DNA of 64,000 nucleotides, taken from Lota lota (taxonomy: Eukaryota; Chordata; Actinopteri; Gadiformes; Lotidae). The position numbers and the translations under genes were made by a program. Location of the stretch: positions 3,614,001 to 3,678,000 of the forward strand of contig JACYXH010000363.1 of NCBI GenBank assembly GCA_026745465.1, written 5' to 3'. The notes under the pieces were generated by a model that saw only the letters and a program-made list of their open reading frames with translations, made no database searches and had not been told where the DNA came from. Positions 11,170-61,245 of this stretch are shown here, piece by piece (positions within the stretch are counted from its first letter, which is position 1; the number at the start of each line of letters is the position of its first letter).

Positions 11170-14100
11170 TCAGACGGCCAGGCTAGCGATGACGGCCCGG
11201 GTGAACTCGTCACTGGAAGCGTAGCCTCCGAGGTCGCCCGTGCGCACCTGTTGTAAAACACAAGAACCATGTGTTACACACACACACACACACACGCGCG
11301 CTCACAGCTGTGCAACACTTGTCCTCACATTCTAAAATACTCCCTTTAATATGGCTGTACAATTAAAGCAGTGCTGAAGACAGATGTATGTATATCCATT
11401 GCAAATAGACATGGTTTGTTCTATAAAGACATGCCCGTGCAGTGTCGTCAAGACCATTTGCTGCATAGCCAGACCTCAGGTCAGTTGACCCCTTGCAGCC
11501 ATTATACAGTGATAAATGGTCAGTAAAGCCGATATCATTCACTATAACCAATAACCATGAGTAAAAACAATATAGCTATTAGTCCAGCAGTTTGTTCCAG
11601 TCTGATTTTATTATTGCAAGGAAACATTTCATCAGTTTTATTTTGGGTCACACTTTCCATGGTCCAAAACCCAACTATAACGTTCAGAGCTTTGAACCTG
11701 AGCAGATTTCTCAAGCCAAACCCAACTATAACGTTCAGAGCTTTGAACCCAACTATAACGTTCAGAGCTTTGAACCTGAGCAGATTTCTCAAGCCAATCA
11801 CAGACATTCTTGTATCATACATGTACAATATCTCTATGATCATTGCAAAGGATTGCAATAGTCATTGAAAATGTATAAAATCAGAAGCTGTCTTGATCCA
11901 CTCAAATGTTTAACATAAAAAGGGGGGTGAGAGCACATCTTGTGTGAAGCATCTCAGGACGGAAACGCAGGTTATCCACTACAGCATGCACAAAGTCCCC
12001 AGTGGTGCAATAACCGCCAAGGTCTCTTGTCCTCACCTGGGGCAGCACATGCCCACACCCACGCCCACCCCCACCCCCACGAGGGGGAGTAAAGGAGAGG
12101 GGAAAAGGTAGGGCACTTCAAATAACTTGCAAGCAGAATCTATCTATGTAACAGTCCTCATTCACTTCTCCTTTATACAATTGAGTAGCAACTTATTGGC
12201 ACTGCAACATTGGGCAAATTGTACCCATATATCAACAAGAATGGATATAATATTTAAATTGGAATAACTGCATTTTAAACTCTAATGCTGAGGCTGACTA
12301 TAATGATTCAAAATGGCATCATTGCTGATTTACATTTAACTCAAGCCCTTTAGGTGTAGGTCCACACCTGCTATGTCATATCCAGATAAAGAAAAGGGAC
12401 TTGATAGGGCCCGATACTGATTGTAGTCACTTCTGTTATTAAAAAAACGTCTCCAGTGTCGAGAGATCGGCTTTCCTCCCTGCTCATTATGTAAATGTCT
12501 CAAGCAAAGCTTTTGCATTATACTTTGCTGTAGGACCAGGCTATTGCAAAAAGGAAACTTCCAATTTTGGTTTAGTTTAGTATTTGACTGTTCAATAATT
12601 GGTTTATTTGATTAGGTATTGACAGCTCAACAGAGCATACAAAAACACACAGCGGGGTTCCAAGACAATGGGCATGCACATTATCATGCGAGTGACATGC
12701 ATGTTGCCGCAGATGGATGAGTGATCTCAGCGCTGTCTCGTTTCATTGGATGAAAAGAGATTTTAATGGCTAATTTGTACATTCCCTTATCATGAGTAGA
12801 AAAAAGTATTTGAGCAAAGTGTAACACAATCAGATTATCTCAGCACAGCCAGGTAAAGAGCTATAGCATATATTCATACATCGTGTCTTTAAAAATAGAT
12901 TTTATTTATTGTAGTACCAGAATTATTTTTGTTTACAATTGTGCTATGATATTTTATCCATATTGCTGAGGTCTACATCCCATCCTCACTTAGCGTATGC
13001 AGATAAAAACATAAAATAAAAAAGACATGTTGATTAGATCACCAATGTTAGTATTGACTGTAGTTGCTGAAAACAAATAGTGTTTAGTTTGATAAAGAAA
13101 AAAGCAGTTCAGGTTAAAACTTATTGGAGAGTTGTTGCTAAGGAAACAAAAAGTATTTGTAGGAGGGGTTAGAGGTGCGGGGACGTCTGCAGTGAGGTCT
13201 TCTGCAGTTTAGCAGGCTGTAAAACAAGTTATGTAAGCCTGCCGTTAGTTAAATTAAATCCTAAAGGGATTCTTGTGTCTGGGACTGTTGGTGTTATCCA
13301 ACTATGATCAGAACTAATGGATGTATCAAAATGTCCCCAGAAAGTTCTGTGTTTCGAAGAAAAGAAATATTTCCAATCAACATTATTACGATTTAAATAT
13401 TGTTTTAGTTTATACATTAATTCAACAATTAAATCTCTCCAACACAATTTTAAAACACTCAAGTTCAATTATGTTGTTCTGCACATTAAAGTGATAACAT
13501 CGTGCCTTATTTCATTCATCTGATTACTTTCAATGACCAATTTATATAGGAGAAGAAGAAGAAGAAGAAGAAGAAGAAGACAAGGCAGGAGATGAAGAAG
13601 AGGAGGAAAGGTTTCCCATGTCAGCTGCTGACAATTTCCAAATCCAATGTGCCAACCATACCGAGGCAGACACTGTTCCTAGAGGTCATGCTGGCAGGGT
13701 TAGTTCATCAATACATTGGATCCTGCGCCAGAATGATCCAGCATAGATTAAAAGGCACGGTTGAGCCCACAAAGTCTTACCTTGCCCTGCTTGATAACCT
13801 TCTTCACAGCGTCCGACACCATCTGGGCGTGATATTCCAGACTGCAAGAAAATGCAGTCAGTTAAGAGTAAGCCGTCTCGTACACGTGGCTAATAAAGTG
13901 CACACTTAAAATGGCCGGCATATTCAATGCCTGGATAGTCCCAATGGGAAGGTCCTATGCTATGTGGTTGCTTTTTTGACCGTTAAGTAAAAAAAAAAAA
14001 AACATCACTTACTTCAGGTGCTTGAGCATGTTGGCAGCGCTGAGCAGCATGGCGGTGGGGTTGGCGATGTTCCTGCCTACCGCCTGGGCGAAAGGGTGAC

Positions 14101-18168: not shown

Positions 18169-24653
<6,485 letters not shown>

Positions 24654-31419: not shown

Positions 31420-31773
31420 TGTTATTATCATACTAATACTATATTACTCATACTGTATCATACTAATACGACTTATTATACCAGTACTACTATGTATAGT
31501 ACTAATACTGTATCATACAAATACTACTTAACTTACCAGTAATACTTATCATTCTTCTTCTACTACTGGTACTAGTCATACTAATATTACTTCTACTACT
31601 ATCACTTCTACTTATCATACTAATACTACTTGTAAGGTATACTAATACTATTTATCATACTAGTACTACTTCTACTACTTACCATACTTCTACTTCTTAT
31701 AAGTTATCATACCATTACAACTATGTATCATACTAGTACTACATCTACTATTTATCAGTCCACTTCTACTGCT
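31420..31773. repeat. Degenerate TACTAATACTAC-type tandem repeat
   Basis: Imperfect repetition of CATACTAATACTACTT and shorter TACTAC blocks. It resumes at 33027-33115 on the other side of the transposon-like element, so the element inserted into it. Confidence 0.75.
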
Positions 31774-31780
31774 GGTAGGG

Positions 31781-33019
31781 TATGGCAAGCCCTTTTAACA
31801 TTTAATCAGTTGGGCTGACTAGTAGCGATTTAGTTTTCACTAGTTCAAAATGACATGTCAAAATGTCGTTTTGACTAGTTAAAATATTAATTTAAGAAAT
31901 CTGTAAAACAATTTTGACATGTTACAAATATATTGTAGAAATTGTAGAAATTACATTTTGACTAGTCAAAACTGATTTACAGATATCTTTAATTTAATTA
32001 TAGATATCAGTAATTCCTTTTTCACTAGTAACAATAACGATTACAGATATATACAATTGAATTTCCACATGCTGAAAAAGGATTGTAACTAGTGGAAATG
32101 TAATTACCCATTTCAGATATCAACAATTGCATTTCCGATATGTCCGACATATTAACAAACCATTTCGGATATGTGGGCGTCATATTATTAAAATACCACA
32201 AAGCCATTGGTCGACATTTAATTACCATATTAGTTTCGGATATGTCGCCCTAATTACCATATTAGTTTTGGATATGTATGTACGTCATTGAAGATGTCTA
32301 CAATTACATTTTGACTTGTCAAAATGCATTTATTTTATATCTAAATTTCAATTCTGACTTGTTATAAACGGAATTGTAGATATGTCAAATATAATTGTTA
32401 CTAGTATGAATATAGTTTTCACTAGGTACAATTGTTTTTCAGATATCTCCAATGCAGTTCTAGATATCTGAAATTACATTCTTACTAGTTACAATTCCAA
32501 TCCAACATATCAATAATAAAAATTTGACTAGTCAGAATTGAATTGTAGATATCTACAATGGACATTTCCACTAGTGAGAATTGAATTGTTGATATCAAGA
32601 ATTAACATTTTGACTAGTGAGAATTGAGTTGTAGATATCATTAATTAGAATTGCAACTAGTCAAAATTACATTATGGATATGTCGACTTGGAATTATAAC
32701 AAGTCAAAATTGAATTATAGATATCTGTAATTGAGTTTGAATGGAAGTCAATGTTAAAAGTTGACTAGTTGTAATTCAGTTACAGATATCAAAAATGGAC
32801 ATTTCCACTAGTAAGAAATGAATTGCTGATATCAAGAATGAACATTTTGACTAGTGAGAAATTAATTGTAGATATCTTTAATTAGAATTGCTACTAGTCA
32901 AAATTACATTATGGATATGTTGGCTTGGAATTATAACTTTTTTTATAATTAATTGTTAATTGTTGATATCTACAATTGCTATTACCGCTACTGATTAAAT
33001 GTTAAAAGGGCTTGCCATA
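31781..33019. mobile_element. Non-autonomous TIR element carrying a palindromic satellite
   Basis: Perfect 30-bp terminal inverted repeats (TATGGCAAGCCC... and its complement) bound 1239 bp, flanked by the same 7-bp direct repeat GGTAGGG at 31774-31780 and 33020-33026. There is no transposase. The interior is almost entirely an array of short palindromes centred alternately on ACTAGT (often within TTTTGACTAGTCAAAA) and GATATC (often within ATTGTAGATATCTACAAT) at 21-22 bp spacing. The structure indicates a cut-and-paste DNA transposon derivative. The superfamily is not assignable from a 7-bp duplication alone. Confidence 0.85.
32561..32937. repeat. Tandem segmental copy inside the element, offset 237 bp
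   Basis: About 140 bp from 32561-32700 recurs at 32798-32937 with a few substitutions. The copies share GACATTTCCACTAGT at the start and GGAATTATAAC at the end. Confidence 0.85.
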
Positions 33020-33026
33020 GGTAGGG

Positions 33027-33115
33027 CTACTTATCATACTAATACTACTACTACTACATGTTTCTACTACGCAAACTTCTAATCATACTAATACTTATCA
33101 TACTACTAGACTAGG
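33027..33115. repeat. Continuation of the TACTAATACTAC repeat
   Basis: Same motif as 31420-31773, interrupted by the transposon-like element. Confidence 0.6.
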
Positions 33116-37638: not shown

Positions 37639-40600
37639 TGGGATCATACTCTGTTGCCACCTACCCAATTGATTAATCCATTCAAATGAAAACAGCAGAA
37701 CAATCTATAGATTAATTGACGATAAAAAATTTATGTTGGTTGTAGGACAATAAGATTGGTCAATATAAATGTTAATGCCATTCAAATACCCAAACATAAA
37801 CAAAGTTATTATAGTCTTATTCCTACGTTATTCACTTTATGCTTATGGACATTGACATTGCACATTGCGTATTTTTGAATTTGCAAAAAGATTTTGAGTT
37901 ACAAGTGAGTGGTATCACTTATCAAGAAAGGCTACTACTGGCACTCAGTGATTCTCAATAGGATTGTTGTTTTTGTCTTGCCTATGCAGTTCATAAAAGC
38001 CATGTACAACCAAACATGGATGGAGAGGTATGGCCAGCCTGCCAGCGCAGAGACAATCACCCTGCTGTGGTCGTCCACGGTTTCCATATTTGCCATTGGA
38101 GGCTTCTTTGGAACACTTTGTGTCTCTTCTATGGTGAAAACCCTGGGGAGGTAATTCATTGATTCAAAATATATTTAAAAAGTATTTTTATAATTAATCA
38201 TCCTAATTCTGTTGTTTATTTACTGTATTCTTGTAATTGTGTTACTTGGCCCTTAACTTAAATGTTTCCTGAAAGTTCAGACAATGATGCTCTATCTATA
38301 GTTACAACCAATTTTTAAATGTCATTCTTTCCTTGGCTTTTCCCCCCTTGCTCCTACTAAAACACTCTCACCTCCTCTCCGGTCCTGCAAAGTGTGAATG
38401 TGGTCTGGTTGTACGAGAGACTTGTAGCAGGCAGCGTACACCTTTGAAGGAAAGACAAGTTCTAGTTTCTGCTGCCCAGCGCGTTGCGGCAGGGCTGGAG
38501 GCATGTCATTCACTCTAATGGAGGCGCCACCTGCGCCCCCAGTGTCTTCCTCCAGGTTCTGTTGCTGTCCATGGCCCCTGCTGATACCACCAGCTAGGCG
38601 CCGGCTAATAGATAGTTTCTTTTCAGCTATTGCACCGGTGGGGGGTGAGGCTAGTGGTGATGGAGGGCCGTCCTTTCACACAGGGAAAGTACTTGACATA
38701 GACACACACACTCTCTGTATTCATAGCTTGTACACACATCTTTGGAGCCAACTATTTGAGATTTTTGTACTGTACACAACAGCTAGCTAATTGGCTGCTA
38801 CCCCAGTAAGCTTCATTAATTTATGTACCCTGGCTCCAGTCCATTGTACATGGTAATCCTGCCCTTGGTGCAGGACATAATGTGATGTTGTAGATACACT
38901 AGTATACCCAGTAACAGAACAGTGTAATGATGCTTCTAGGGAAGTAATAGTGTCCTTAATAGTATAGGCTACATCATGTTACCTAACCCCTAGAATGCTG
39001 TGAGAATGAATATTGCATTGCATGGTGTTTACAATATATATACATTTGCAGGACTTGGATAGATCACTACATGGTCCAGCACTGTAATGCTGTTTTCTAC
39101 ACTACCTCTTTTGTTGCATCTATTTTTAGTTGCATCTAATTCAGTTTAGTCTATTTTTAGCTTAGGTGTTTATTCCCTGGCAGTAGCAGTTCCTCTGTGT
39201 ATAATTTCAACGTCAGGGACTGAACATGACAATATTTAGGTTGATTTCGTTAGACTTCATTGTGGTGTCCAGAATTGGTTTGAGTACAGCCAACATTTAC
39301 AGCAGAGGAGAGATGGATGAGCTAAAATGTTAAGCCAAGCGTAATCCTGGGTAATTTCTCGAAATCTCGTAATAACGAAATCTACAATGCATATGTTCTT
39401 TATCTTTATTTATTTATTGTTTGGAACAAAGAAAAAAATGTTGTGTAGGGACACAGGGTGTGGAGCAATTTGCTTTGGCCCGAGAGACAGTGGTGGGCCA
39501 TCTATTCTGTGATCCAATCTGGAGGTGGGGCAAGGTGGGTGGTGCAATGGGATTCTCAGGTGTCCACCTAGCAGAGTTCCTAGTGTGATTTGGTCCCATT
39601 ACCTCATGCACCTGTGCCAGTATTCCCATCATTACTCCCTAATAATCGGTATTTGAGAAGGTAAGGAACTGTCCCTCCACTAACGATGAGGATGTCAGAT
39701 TGGCAGAGGAAAAAGCTCATGAAGGTTTTGCCCTGAGCCGTGAAGAATTAAACAGGCGAAATTACAGGAGCAGAGCGCGGAAGCAAGGTCAAGGTACCTG
39801 TTGGTATCTGCGGATAGTCCCTCTTAAGATTCACCTTGGATCTCTCAAGAGGGGGTATGGGGTATGTGTCGACTATTATTCATCCTCTCTCTCTCGCTCT
39901 CTTCTCTCTCTTCTCTTTCCTCAGGACATCTGTGTGCCGGCTGGCAGTTGTGCAGGGTGTCTAGAAAGGTTTAGACTCTTGGCTCAGGCAGGGAGAGTTG
40001 AATATATTAGGTGGTGAACATGCCCTTATGGGTTTGAATGAAGAGCAATTTGGAATATACATTAAAAGTTCTGCCTGCCCTCTTGAACTGTACAGCGGAA
40101 TGTTTTTTGGGTTTTTGCTTTACCTTACAACAAAAGTACACAACGGATCAATAACATTATGTTGTTACTTTACACTACTATAACCAATGGGTTTTGTTGC
40201 CTAGAAAAAAAGGAATCTTGTCATCGGGATTCTATTGCTATTCCAGCAATATCGTTAAGCTCAACTCTGGAATTGGGTGGGTTTAACTAGATCTTTGTAG
40301 ATCTCAGATACTTTTATTATAGTTCTAACAAATGCTACTTCTGTGAGGTCTTTAGTGTTGGTGAAATTACTGTCAGTGTTGCAAGAGAAAGTTAATGAGA
40401 CAAAGTACAGGAGTTTACTATGGAGGGATGTTTATGCTAGCTGGGTTTTGAACCAGCAGGAGGCGATAAACATGCATGCAAAAGAACCCATCTCCCCTGA
40501 GAGGAAAAGCAGCGATTCAACGCCAACCACAGCCAACCTATGTCCATCTGCTCTGGTCCGAAAATAACTGTGCTGTGTCTCAATCACTCCCTTAAATAGC

Positions 40601-43600
40601 TACAGCCCTTATTTTAAATTACAACAAGTATATCCAGGACTTGGCTGTAATCCAATTCCCAGGATCCTTGATCAGTTTTCCCTGTTCCTCTGGGAGGACA
40701 TTTCTAAAGGAGAAGAGCTGAGATGTACAGATTGTAATAAAAAATATATAATGTTTAGGATGACTCCCACTCCCACATCATGGTTCCCAAGGTATTAATA
40801 AAAACAAGTACAATTATAAATTTGTAATTTGTAGAAGCTATATTTTCTTTACTGTCAGACTTGACATTCTTTAATACTTATTTCACAAGTCATATTGTTT
40901 TCATTTAAAGTAGTCACTTGTGGATTCTTTAAGAGAAAAAAAGATTGGATGCTGTGTGAAATATTTTAGCCCTGCTGGTCGATTGAGGTAACCATCACAT
41001 CACACTTAATAACTGCAATAAACAAATGTGTGCGTGCACTTTTCTGTCAATTACAATGGCAAAACCCTATGGTTTTGCCATTCTCACCTTCCACCCCAAA
41101 CCAATTGAAATGGCTTGTCATTCTTAAGGATATTTACTGTAAATGGTCTTGGGGAAGAGCTTGAGCGCACTCTGCTCTTTATTTTTCATATCTTCAAGAT
41201 GTCAAGATATCAAGATGGTTTCGGAATTGGAATCATCCATCTTGCAGTTTGAAAACTGCTTCTTTAAGCACTCCTAACTAGGCTCAGAGTAAAGGATGAG
41301 CACTTGCATGTGGACTGAATATGAAGTGTACTACAGTAGACAGCACTGTACCAGTACTGTAAACAGTTCGTCACACAAATTAATAAAACAAGCATCGTGC
41401 TGCCTCAGCAAAACCTACATTATCTACCATTTTAAAATCTGAAACGAAAGCACTTCTCTTGCTTTGGATGACGCGAATGATTATTTATAAACACTGAGAA
41501 GTGTATTTTAATTCAAATCAAATCAGTTCTGTGTAATCAAGGTAATCTCTGTAAGACAGTTTAACAAATATTTGCTTGAGCTATGAAACAAAATATTAAA
41601 GGTTTGAGTCAGAGAGTCATTATAACCAAATATTGAATGTGGATAACATTGTGTAGGCCTACTGATCTGGGATTTATTTTGAACGTCTGGATTAAAGGGA
41701 ATTAGAGTGGTGCTTCAAACTGAGTGACTCTTTCCCAAAGGACCAGTTTTGGAGAGAAAGCAACACTTTATAGAGGCATTGGAAGATGGTCAGCTCACTG
41801 TGAACAAGAACACGGCCTAACAAAACAAAAGGGATAACCCCATATCATTTCATTTTCAAGCACTTCTTTATTATTTTGACCGCTGGTGCTGAAAAATATC
41901 CCCTGCCAAATCCTTTTTTTAGGAGGTAGGATAACAATGCATCACCTGGGACTAAAAAAAGTCATGTAATTGGTCGGTTTCTTGCATTGATAACATACCG
42001 TCACAAAATGTTAGTTTTGTGCTCTGTCAGACACGTGCATGTTAACATAATGAGACCTGACATGGAAAATTGAACTGTATAAAAATCCATTCATACCTAT
42101 CTTGACATTTATATGTTAAAGCTCTTCTCTCACAATCAAGCATTTAGTAATCTCAAAAGACAAGAATCAATTATTCAAAGGCTAAATAATACAAATACTA
42201 TAATGCAATGCTTTTTTCATAGGTACATCATGATATAATATGAGTTATATAGAATAATGTTATCAATGCAAAACTGTGGCGGGAAATAGCCAGACAATAA
42301 ACCTTTAGCCTTCAAGAACAGGCCATCGTTTTAGCACTTGGCATATTTATGGGATGTGGCACTAAAGCCAAGTTTAGCTGTTAGTAAATTATTTATTTGA
42401 CCGTTAAAAAGAACACAATATATCCAGGATCACACAGGGGTTCAGGGACCTGTCCTGTAATACTTATTCTTGAAATGCTTTGGCCCAAATCACATCACAC
42501 CAGCTCTGCTGTATACCCATGAATGAAGAAGCTCCACCTGTGGCTATGACTGATATCTGCCCCTCTCGTATGTTCCCTCCTTGACAGGAAGGGCACCTTG
42601 CTGCTGAACAACTGCTTTGCAGTAATAGCGGCTGTGTTTCTCACCCTGGGGGAGAAGGCAGGTTCTTTTGAAATGCTCCTCGTCGGTCGGCTCATCATGG
42701 GAGTGGACTCTGGTGAGTTTTTCTATTCCCCCTATAGGTTAGTGTCCAAGAAGTCCTGCTCATTATCCCTGCAATATAAATAGTCCCGAGTTGGTACCAG
42801 CAGCAGTGGGCAGTTGGGCATGTAGGTTGCATGGGTGGCTCAATCAGCCCCGGTGCCTGAATGTGCCCGACTCCTAATATTTAGTAGTGCTGTAGTGCAG
42901 TGTGATTGCAGTTTTATTTTACATTGCTTGTAATCTTTTTACAGTATAAAAACCGGCCCTTACGATCTCTATTCTCATTTGCTCAAAGTTGAGCAATTGT
43001 GTAAATCAGTTAAATTAATTGTTTAATATAATAACACAATATTCTAAAATGTGTTATAAGTAAAATATATACTGTAAAATGATATGCATTGTCTCGCATT
43101 TAAATTCCTAAAGTGAACTATTTTGACTGTATGAAACATTGCCTAGTACAGTGTGGCTACAATCTTATGAATTTACCAAATGTTTTCTGGATCTTATTAT
43201 TATAATTTCTTCATAATAATCACACTATGGAAAATGTCATATAGAGCACTGAAAATATCACTAAGATTTTTATTTTATTTTTTTTACATATTAGGTATTG
43301 CTCTTTGTGCTCTGCCAATGTACCTTGGAGAAATTTCCCCAAGGAATATAAGAGGATCAATTGGTCAGTTCAATGCCATCCTCATCTGCCTGGGAGTGTT
43401 TACTGGACAAGTGCTGGGGCTTCCAGAGCTGCTGGGACAGGTTGGTGCTATTGGGCTTTTGTCCGCTGTTGAGCATAAGCTTGTTCCAAATAACAGAACC
43501 CAGAAATGAAAACAAACCAAATGACAAAAATGGTTAAATTAGTTATAATAAAAAATGACTAATAAAATGTATAAAATCGTTATCTCTAAAGGTGAGAATG

Positions 43601-59597: not shown

Positions 59598-61245
59598 CAG
59601 TATCTCACAAAAGTGAGGACACCCCTCACATTTTTGTAAATATTTGAGTATATCTTTTCATGTGACAACACTGAAGAAATGACACTTTGCTACAATGTAA
59701 AGTAGTGAGTGTACAGCTTGTATAACAGTGTACATTTGCTGTCCCCTCAAAATAACTCAACACAGCCATTAATGTCTAAACCGCTGGCAACAAAAGTGAG
59801 TACACCCCTAAGTGAAAATGTCCAAATTGGGCCCAATTAACCATTTTCCCACCCCGGTGTCATGTGACTCGTCAGTGTTACAAGGTCTCAGGTGTGAATG
59901 GGGAGCAGGTGTGTAAAATTTGGTGTCATCGCTCTCACACTCCCTCATACTGGTCACTGGAAGTTCAACATGGCACCTCATGGCAAAGAACTCTCTGAGG
60001 ATCTGAAAAAAAGAATTGTTGCTCTACATAAAGATGGCATGGGCTATAAGAAGATTGCCAAGACCCTGAAACTGAGCTGCAGCACGGTGGCCAAGACCAT
60101 ACAGCGGTTTAACAGGACAGGTTCCACTCAGAACAGGCCTCGCCATGGTCAACCAAAGAAGTTGAGTGCACGTGCTCAGCGTCATATCCAGAGGTTGTCT
60201 TTGGGAAATAGACATATGAGTGCTGCCAGCATTGCTGCAGAGGTTGAAGGGGTGGGGGGTCAGCCTGTCAGTGCTCAGACCATACGCCGCACACTGCATC
60301 AAATTGGTCTGCATGGCTGTCGTCCCAGAAAGAAGCCTCTTCTAAAGATGATGCACAAGAAAGCCCGCAAACAGTTTGCTGAAGACAAGCAGACTAAGGA
60401 CATGGATTACTGGAACCATGTACTGTGGTCTGATGAGACCAAGATACACTTATTTGGTTCAGATGGTGTCAAGTGTGTGTGTCGGCAACCAGGTGAGGAG
60501 TACAAAGACAAGTGTGTCTTGCCTACAGTCAAGCATGGTGGTGGGAGTGTCATGGTCTGGGGCTGCATGAGTGCTGCCGGCACTGGGGAGCTACAGTTCA
60601 TTGAGGGAATCATGAATGCCAACATGTACTGTGACATACTGAAGCAGAGCATGATCCCCTCCCTTCGGAGACTGGGCCGCAGGGCAGTATTCCACATGAT
60701 AACGATCCCAAACACACCTCCAAGACGACCACTGCCTTGCTAAAGAAGCTGAGGGTAAAGGTGATGGACTGGCCAAGCATGTCTCCAGACCTAAACCCTA
60801 TTGAGCATCTGTGGGGCATCCTCAAACGGAAGGTGGAGAAGTGCAAGGTCTCTAACATCTACCAGCTCCGTGATGTCGTCATGGAGGAGTGGAAGAGGAC
60901 TCCAGTGGCAACCTGTGAAGCTCTGGTGAACTCCATGCCCAAGAGGGTTAAGGCAGTGCTGGAAAATGATGGTGGCCACACAAAATATTGACACTTTGGG
61001 CCCAATTTGGACATTTTCACTTAGGGGTGTACTCACTTTTGTTGCCAGCGGTTTAGACATTAATGGCTGTGTGTTTTGAGGGGACAGCAAATGTACACTG
61101 TTATACAAGCTGTACACTCACTACTTTACATTGTAGCAAAGTGTCATTTCTTTGTCATTTCTTTTCTTTTTTCGTTGTCACATGAAAAGATATACTCAAA
61201 TATTTACAGAAATGTGAGGGGTGTACTCACTTTTGTGAGATACTG
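59598..61245 (+). mobile_element. Tc1-family transposon, near full length
   Basis: A 1648-bp Tc1/mariner element in slc2a9 intron 8, flanked by TA target duplications (59596-59597 and 61246-61247). Terminal inverted repeats of about 240-250 bp (59598-59838 and 60996-61245) begin CAGTATCTCACAAAAGTGAG on the left, with the complement on the right. Each TIR repeats the AAAGTGAGTACACCCCT-type motif at its outer and inner ends, the paired transposase-site layout of this group. The right TIR carries extra TTTCTTTGTCATTTCTTTT sequence. The single transposase frame is broken, so this copy is not autonomous. Confidence 0.95.
59970..60991 (+). pseudogene. Tc1 transposase, broken by one-base deletion
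   Basis: The start MAPHGKELSEDLKKRIVALH opens the paired helix-turn-helix DNA-binding region. The catalytic domain follows with the first Asp in HVLWSDETKI. The frame is intact to about 60693, where one base is missing in the A run of TTCCACAT. After this the HDNDPKHTS motif (second Asp) and SPDLNPIEHLWG (third acidic residue) lie in the next frame, ending at 60991. Counting the missing base, the ancestral protein was about 340 residues, the usual Tc1 length. The frame as it stands stops at 60743 without the second and third catalytic residues. Confidence 0.93.

Follow-up and report, generated by a model that had tools for sequence, protein, structure and literature searches.

An alternating lattice of ACTAGT- and GATATC-centred dyads inside a likely non-autonomous transposon of Lota lota

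We analysed a 64,000-nucleotide stretch of the Lota lota genome (contig JACYXH010000363.1, positions 3,614,001 to 3,678,000; hereafter the window), in which an element of 1,239 bp with a G+C content of 27.8% lies at positions 31781–33019, between exon-like open reading frames (ORFs) resembling WDR1 and SLC2A9. The element is bounded by perfect terminal inverted repeats (TIRs) and by GGTAGGG on both sides (Table 1), and the initial annotation, which described a transposon-like element with 30-bp TIRs and a 7-bp duplication, was correct in this respect. No stop-to-stop ORF of at least 80 amino acids overlaps 31781–33019 in any frame. Because TIRs and flanking direct repeats are combined with the absence of such an ORF, the element, examined here as a single copy, is likely a non-autonomous cut-and-paste transposon. 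It shows three of the features by which miniature inverted-repeat transposable elements (MITEs) are recognised, namely a TIR at each end, the GGTAGGG duplication on both sides and no transposase gene. The presence of GGTAGGG at both flanks of this one allele makes a target-site duplication likely. The outer 11 bases of the TIR occur exactly only twice in the window, at the element's own ends; with up to two mismatches, the outer TIR sequence TATGGCAAGCC has 16 matches compared to a shuffle mean of 18.1, and no second pair of element ends was seen within the window. The surroundings of the insertion are a degenerate TAC/TAT-rich minisatellite (31426–31757 and about 33020–33115, the right side judged by eye).

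Table 1. Coordinates of the element, its flanks and its internal features in the window
Feature	Position	Strand	Remark
Left flanking direct repeat GGTAGGG	31774..31780	+	Likely 7-bp target-site duplication; read from sequence
Left 30-bp TIR, TATGGCAAGCCCTTTTAACATTTAATCAGT	31781..31810	+	100% complementary to 32990–33019
Left part of dyad array	31811..32130		Lattice with gaps; lag-21 match 0.45, lag-43 match 0.41
Degenerate segment	32131..32290		No 43-bp periodicity (lag-43 match 0.30); GATATG variants
Unbroken 21-core run	32293..32725		Spaced 21.35 bp on average; 9 of 126 core bases mismatched
Marker subunit, inverted copy	32489..32512	-	3 mismatches in 24
Internal duplication, first copy	32519..32700	+	Offset 237 bp; first 40 columns look less related
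18-bp perfect dyad, ATTGTAGATATCTACAAT	32542..32559		Best example of the shared frame
Internal duplication, second copy	32756..32937	+	
Last GATATC core	32965..32970		19 bp inward of right TIR
Right 30-bp TIR	32990..33019	-	Perfect match to left end (30/30)
Right flanking direct repeat GGTAGGG	33020..33026	+	Read from sequence

Between the TIRs, the element carries an array of two core hexamers, ACTAGT (S) and GATATC (E), which we counted with at most one mismatch. We found 47 core sites inside the element, compared to a mean of 15.4 and a maximum of 27 in 300 shuffles, and 36 of the 46 gaps between them measure 21 or 22 bp (mean 0.26 and maximum 2 in the same number of shuffles). Exact cores are likewise frequent, with 16 copies of ACTAGT and 13 of GATATC, where 500 shuffles averaged 0.26 and 0.43. 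At lag 43, where the initial annotation had expected a peak, the interior has its highest autocorrelation (0.471), followed by lag 86 (0.410); 200 dinucleotide shuffles reached at most 0.364 at any lag. These comparisons of site counts, gaps and autocorrelation rule out that the lattice arose by chance. The ten core starts previously listed from 32527 to 32720 are all exact, and the unbroken run to which they belong is longer, comprising 21 sites. Among the 36 neighbours at 21 or 22 bp, 30 alternate between the two types (16 SE and 14 ES) and six are of the same type (4 EE and 2 SS), such that alternation is the rule without being strict. The basic step therefore measures about 21.4 bp, with two sites making up one 43-bp period. 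Within the region that lacks the 43-bp period, a 32-bp tandem pair (32220–32279) carries GATATG and ATTAGT variants. Its ATTAGT sites at 32229 and 32261 each lie 10 bp ahead of the next site and may stand outside the lattice proper; one of the 36 lattice gaps (32239 to 32261) depends on them.

Both core types are embedded in one frame, ATT-N3-core-N3-AAT, in which ATT occupies offsets -6 to -4 and AAT offsets +9 to +11. When at most one mismatch is allowed over the six ATT/AAT bases, the frame is present at 36 of the 47 core sites inside the element, compared to 8 of the 522 core-like sites outside it. To avoid selecting by core, we also walked through the element from 32527 using ATT/AAT matches only, which makes the walk blind to the cores. 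Between 32293 and 32914 this walk has 30 nodes, 28 of them with a core (at most one mismatch), and in the 21-core run it recovers 20 of the 21 positions exactly, with 32336 off by one base. Walks from random starting phases had a core at a mean of 24% of their nodes (5–95% range 4–53%), and presumably some of them drop into the same register as the lattice.

The symmetry of the array is local to each dyad. Across the dyads, the flank offsets 4–6 pair in 102 of 141 cells, whereas the N3 bases pair in 47 of 141 (33%), near the 29% found for all centres in the element. The arms show no overall covariation over offsets 1–8 (total 175 compared to 170.9 expected for the 47 sites, p 0.28), and we thus reject the idea that they are held complementary. 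Single exceptions, none corrected for the number of offsets, are found at offset 4 over all sites (p 0.032), among the 22 S sites at offset 4 (p 0.002) and offset 5 (p 0.043), and, for the 40 sites that remain when those of the second block copy (32785–32914) are dropped, at offset 4 (p 0.030) and at offsets 1–4 together (p 0.0375). Two statements of the initial annotation on palindromes were not confirmed. Instead of many perfect palindromes of 16–18 bp, only two core-centred ones reach at least 16 bp, at 31956–31971 (16 bp) and at the 18-bp dyad in Table 1, and the remaining ones of at least 8 bp measure 8–10 bp. Furthermore, the 43-bp monomer is not palindromic as a whole: its ungapped 13-unit consensus is self-complementary at 28 of 43 positions, a value equalled or exceeded by 295 of 2,000 shuffles, and one of its two linkers is 1 bp longer than the other. 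Symmetry is conserved in the core and at offsets 4–6, as at a dimer-binding site, and would thus serve reading by a protein rather than local extrusion.

An internal duplication offers a view of how the units diverge. The two copies differ at 21 of 182 aligned columns, and the differences are distributed unevenly, with 0 of 48 in the cores, 6 of 51 in the frame and 15 of 83 elsewhere (core compared to non-core 0/48 and 21/134, Fisher p 0.0013). A mutation bias towards A/T would not explain the spared cores, as their C and G should be its first targets. We regard this sparing as a suggestive but not decisive sign of constraint. Besides its inverted copy, the marker subunit has forward copies at 32676 (2 mismatches in 24) and 32913 (0 in 24); at a cut-off of 7 mismatches two more matches appeared, each with 6, at 32167 inside and 11608 outside the element, which we take as chance level. 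In addition, the segments 32487–32539 and 32886–32938 form inverted arms that are 83% complementary. The presence of the marker in both orientations and the inverted arms suggest that the array likely grew by copying of multi-unit blocks, both directly (237 bp) and in inverted orientation, and palindromic units would ease both routes.

Taken together, the reading we tentatively prefer, and to which we give close to an even chance, is that of a non-autonomous TIR transposon whose interior is an array of 47 predicted binding sites for a dimeric protein, mostly 21–22 bp apart. Under this reading, a transposase supplied from elsewhere would recognise the TIRs, move the element and leave the 7-bp duplications. 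Each dyad would be read through its core hexamer and ATT/AAT flanks by a symmetric protein, which would be the transposase of the partner or a factor of the host, with adjacent dimers spaced by two helical turns and facing nearly the same side of the DNA. Given the identity of the two TIRs, the units likely diverged for the most part before this insertion, and the spared cores would then point to constraint at a time when the lineage was mobile. A platform for a dimeric protein had already been proposed in the initial annotation; conserved cores and ATT/AAT around a variable N3, together with the spared cores, favour that proposal but do not prove it. The annotation had also placed all dyads on one side of the DNA, which is true locally, only for a twist of about 10.65–10.7 bp per turn, and is no more than approximate over the run: the vector strength of the 21-site run reaches 0.95 for a twist of 10.65 and 0.94 for 10.7 bp per turn but falls to 0.42 for 10.5, and that of all 47 sites is at best 0.73, at 10.7 bp per turn. 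A precedent is offered by hAT elements, whose transposases bind short motifs that recur alongside the TIRs (PMC3143072).

Several observations weigh against the binding-site array. In the hAT cases described there, the transposase motifs lie near the ends (PMC3143072), whereas here the sites fill the whole interior. The evidence comes from one copy, the binding sites are predicted, and no candidate for the partner was found. As the sites were selected by their core, the apparent conservation of the cores is inflated. Over its whole length the frame-only walk has a core at only 29 of 54 nodes; left of 32293 it keeps register at 32116 alone, and the two nodes right of 32914 both lack a core. The sparing of cores weakens when the first 40 columns of the duplication are left out (11 differences in 142 columns, core 0/36, p 0.066). 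Moreover, the alignment ends within the core at 32699 (ACAAGT), which was left uncounted, and the counterpart of this core at 32936 is ACTTTT, two mismatches from ACTAGT. Finally, the fold of the array (-223.9 kcal/mol) is stronger than that of controls with shuffled N3 columns (mean -198.0 kcal/mol, standard deviation 6.6, 0 of 40 as good) and of controls with the flanks shuffled as well (mean -198.5, standard deviation 7.3, 0 of 40 as good). This surplus counts against a pure binding-site model, in which none is needed, and we take it as speaking for the duplication history.

A serious competitor, to which we assign clearly less weight, is that the interior is satellite-like filler: a short symmetric repeat inside a non-autonomous transposon would have expanded through slippage, unequal exchange and template switching at the dyads, with nothing reading the array. 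The direct 237-bp block duplication and the inverted marker copy speak for such growth, and tandem repeats, central or within the TIRs, are described for other non-autonomous elements, namely Tetris (PMC4079207) and HINEs (PMC7492417). Against filler stand the uneven conservation along the unit, with cores and ATT/AAT high and N3 low (a contrast sharpened by picking sites by their core), and the spared cores in the duplication (p 0.0013, or 0.066 when trimmed). A further possibility is a source of hairpin RNA, in which transcripts from either strand would fold back and be diced into small RNAs silencing the family or its partner. The DNA fold of 32290–32730 lies far below its shuffles (z-score -10.6, 100 shuffles), as does the RNA fold of 32290–32985 (z-score -12.6, 20 shuffles), and the array beats both versions of the column-shuffled controls. 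Yet a symmetric tandem array folds well regardless, as the column-shuffled mean of -198.0 kcal/mol is itself far stronger than the mean of -134.6 obtained by dinucleotide shuffling of almost the same stretch, and the N3 arms show no overall covariation; we consider a hairpin-RNA source improbable.

Two structural explanations fare worse still. If each dyad extruded as a cruciform under supercoiling, as the initial annotation also envisaged, the perfect dyads of 16 and 18 bp and the offset-4 pairing above column-shuffle expectation would fit. With only 2 of the 47 dyads perfect over at least 16 bp and the N3 arms pairing at background, extrusion of single dyads is unsupported and is the least probable of the explanations considered here; the potential for long-range foldback is real. 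The array could also be a rotational nucleosome-positioning sequence, given that AA/TT dinucleotides in 32291–32950 have a periodicity peak at 10.7 bp (power 13.4). The usual AA/TT period in nucleosomes is 10.2 bp, where the power is just 0.2, and the other dinucleotide peaks are weak and lie elsewhere (TA 3.6 at 10.4 bp, G/C-only 2.4 at 11.3 bp). Nucleosome positioning would moreover leave the hexamer cores superfluous, and we judge it very unlikely. A bolder version of the preferred binding-site array, unlikely in our view although less so than the RNA and structural explanations, is a vertebrate family that carries a lattice for protein assembly. Here, about fifty dyads on a 21.4-bp lattice would let a dimer polymerise along nearly one face, with the two alternating cores read by two related subunits, either for transposition or for the element's own silencing or shielding.

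If a protein reads the dyads, the element would amount to a ready-made mobile cluster of dimer sites, able to place a platform for regulation or silencing beside genes; in the window it sits between the exon matches to WDR1 and SLC2A9. It would further provide a concrete case of a satellite-like transposon array that is under constraint and not filler. If no protein reads them, the element still illustrates clearly how an array of symmetric units can expand through both direct and inverted copying.

When comparing the element to known systems, we find partial similarities. MITEs and other non-autonomous TIR transposons share the TIRs, the flanking direct repeats and the lack of coding capacity, but differ in that the interior is here an ordered lattice of dyads. 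Helentron-derived HINEs (Cg_HINE, Pearl) resemble it in having a satellite-like central array within a mobile element. Helentrons and HINEs are not known to have a TIR or a duplication; the terminal TIRs and flanking direct repeats found here thus argue against membership. HINEs are described as having subterminal inverted repeats and a 3' palindrome (PMC7492417). Galileo, of the P superfamily in Drosophila, has 7-bp duplications and repetitive non-coding DNA in common with the element. Its TIRs are described as long and internally repetitive (575–610 bp in two tabulated copies, 10 bp in a third) and its duplication consensus is GTAGTAC (PMC2775673). The element has 30-bp TIRs and GGTAGGG, so that it does not belong to Galileo by duplication consensus, although the 7-bp length fits. 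Tetris, a foldback transposon of D. virilis, is likewise a non-autonomous DNA transposon with internal tandem repeats; these are about 220 bp long and located in the TIRs (PMC4079207). The 30-bp TIR and the repeats between the TIRs exclude a Tetris-like foldback element. Dada transposons have 6–7-bp duplications and occur in fish. Small RNA genes are the insertion sites of those Dada elements whose ends are defined, and TIRs are absent from Dada-U6/U1 (PMC3706591, PMC8869645). The 30-bp TIRs and the absence of a small RNA gene at the insertion do not agree with Dada, and searches of the window against Rfam at gathering thresholds and for tRNAs gave no match. For hAT, the 7-bp duplication differs from the length of about 8 bp given for both P and hAT (PMC3706591), but a query in a Repbase paper asks for hAT entries with a '7-bp TSD' (PMC4455052).

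Searches of viral contigs, genome contigs, phages and plasmids yielded no relative. The exact TIR (29 and 19 bases) was not found in viral contigs, and an 18-base piece of it had six matches in genome contigs, all bacterial contigs of metagenome-assembled genomes; this is chance level, with about seven expected by our estimate for 257 billion bases and two strands. In viral contigs, three-core patterns gave none and one stretch, and a two-core pattern with flanks gave five; none of the outside stretches matched (L001–L012) has the lattice, the longest 21/22-bp chain comprising 3 sites. A distant blastn search of phages and plasmids gave no match. The TIR string was not found in open-licence PubMed Central (PMC) text, and no description of the design was among the matches listed for open-licence PMC titles and abstract openings. 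Alternating GACTAGT/GATATC stretches resemble zebrafish-type genomic sequence, and the family may already have a database name. A review on fish mobile elements gave no help in placing the element (PMC7599744).

Lastly, we describe the remaining features of the window, whose sequence is eukaryotic and by its content likely that of a ray-finned fish. CpG is depleted (observed/expected 0.44). The exon-like ORFs matching WDR1 lie at 22668–22952 and 23185–23454 (+), and those matching SLC2A9 or a sugar transporter lie within 37909–43509 (+), with the SLC2A9 match at 37909–38154. A Tc1/mariner-type transposase at 59898–60991 (+) has matches to the Pfam families HTH_Tnp_Tc3_2 and HTH_SB. This gene is likely broken, as it is apparently spread over two overlapping frames (59898–60743 and 60635–60991). 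Long and mostly perfect AC/GT dinucleotide runs are frequent (2062–2210, 21805–21934, 24128–24261 and others), and a 27-bp tandem repeat is present in about four copies at 11668–11776.
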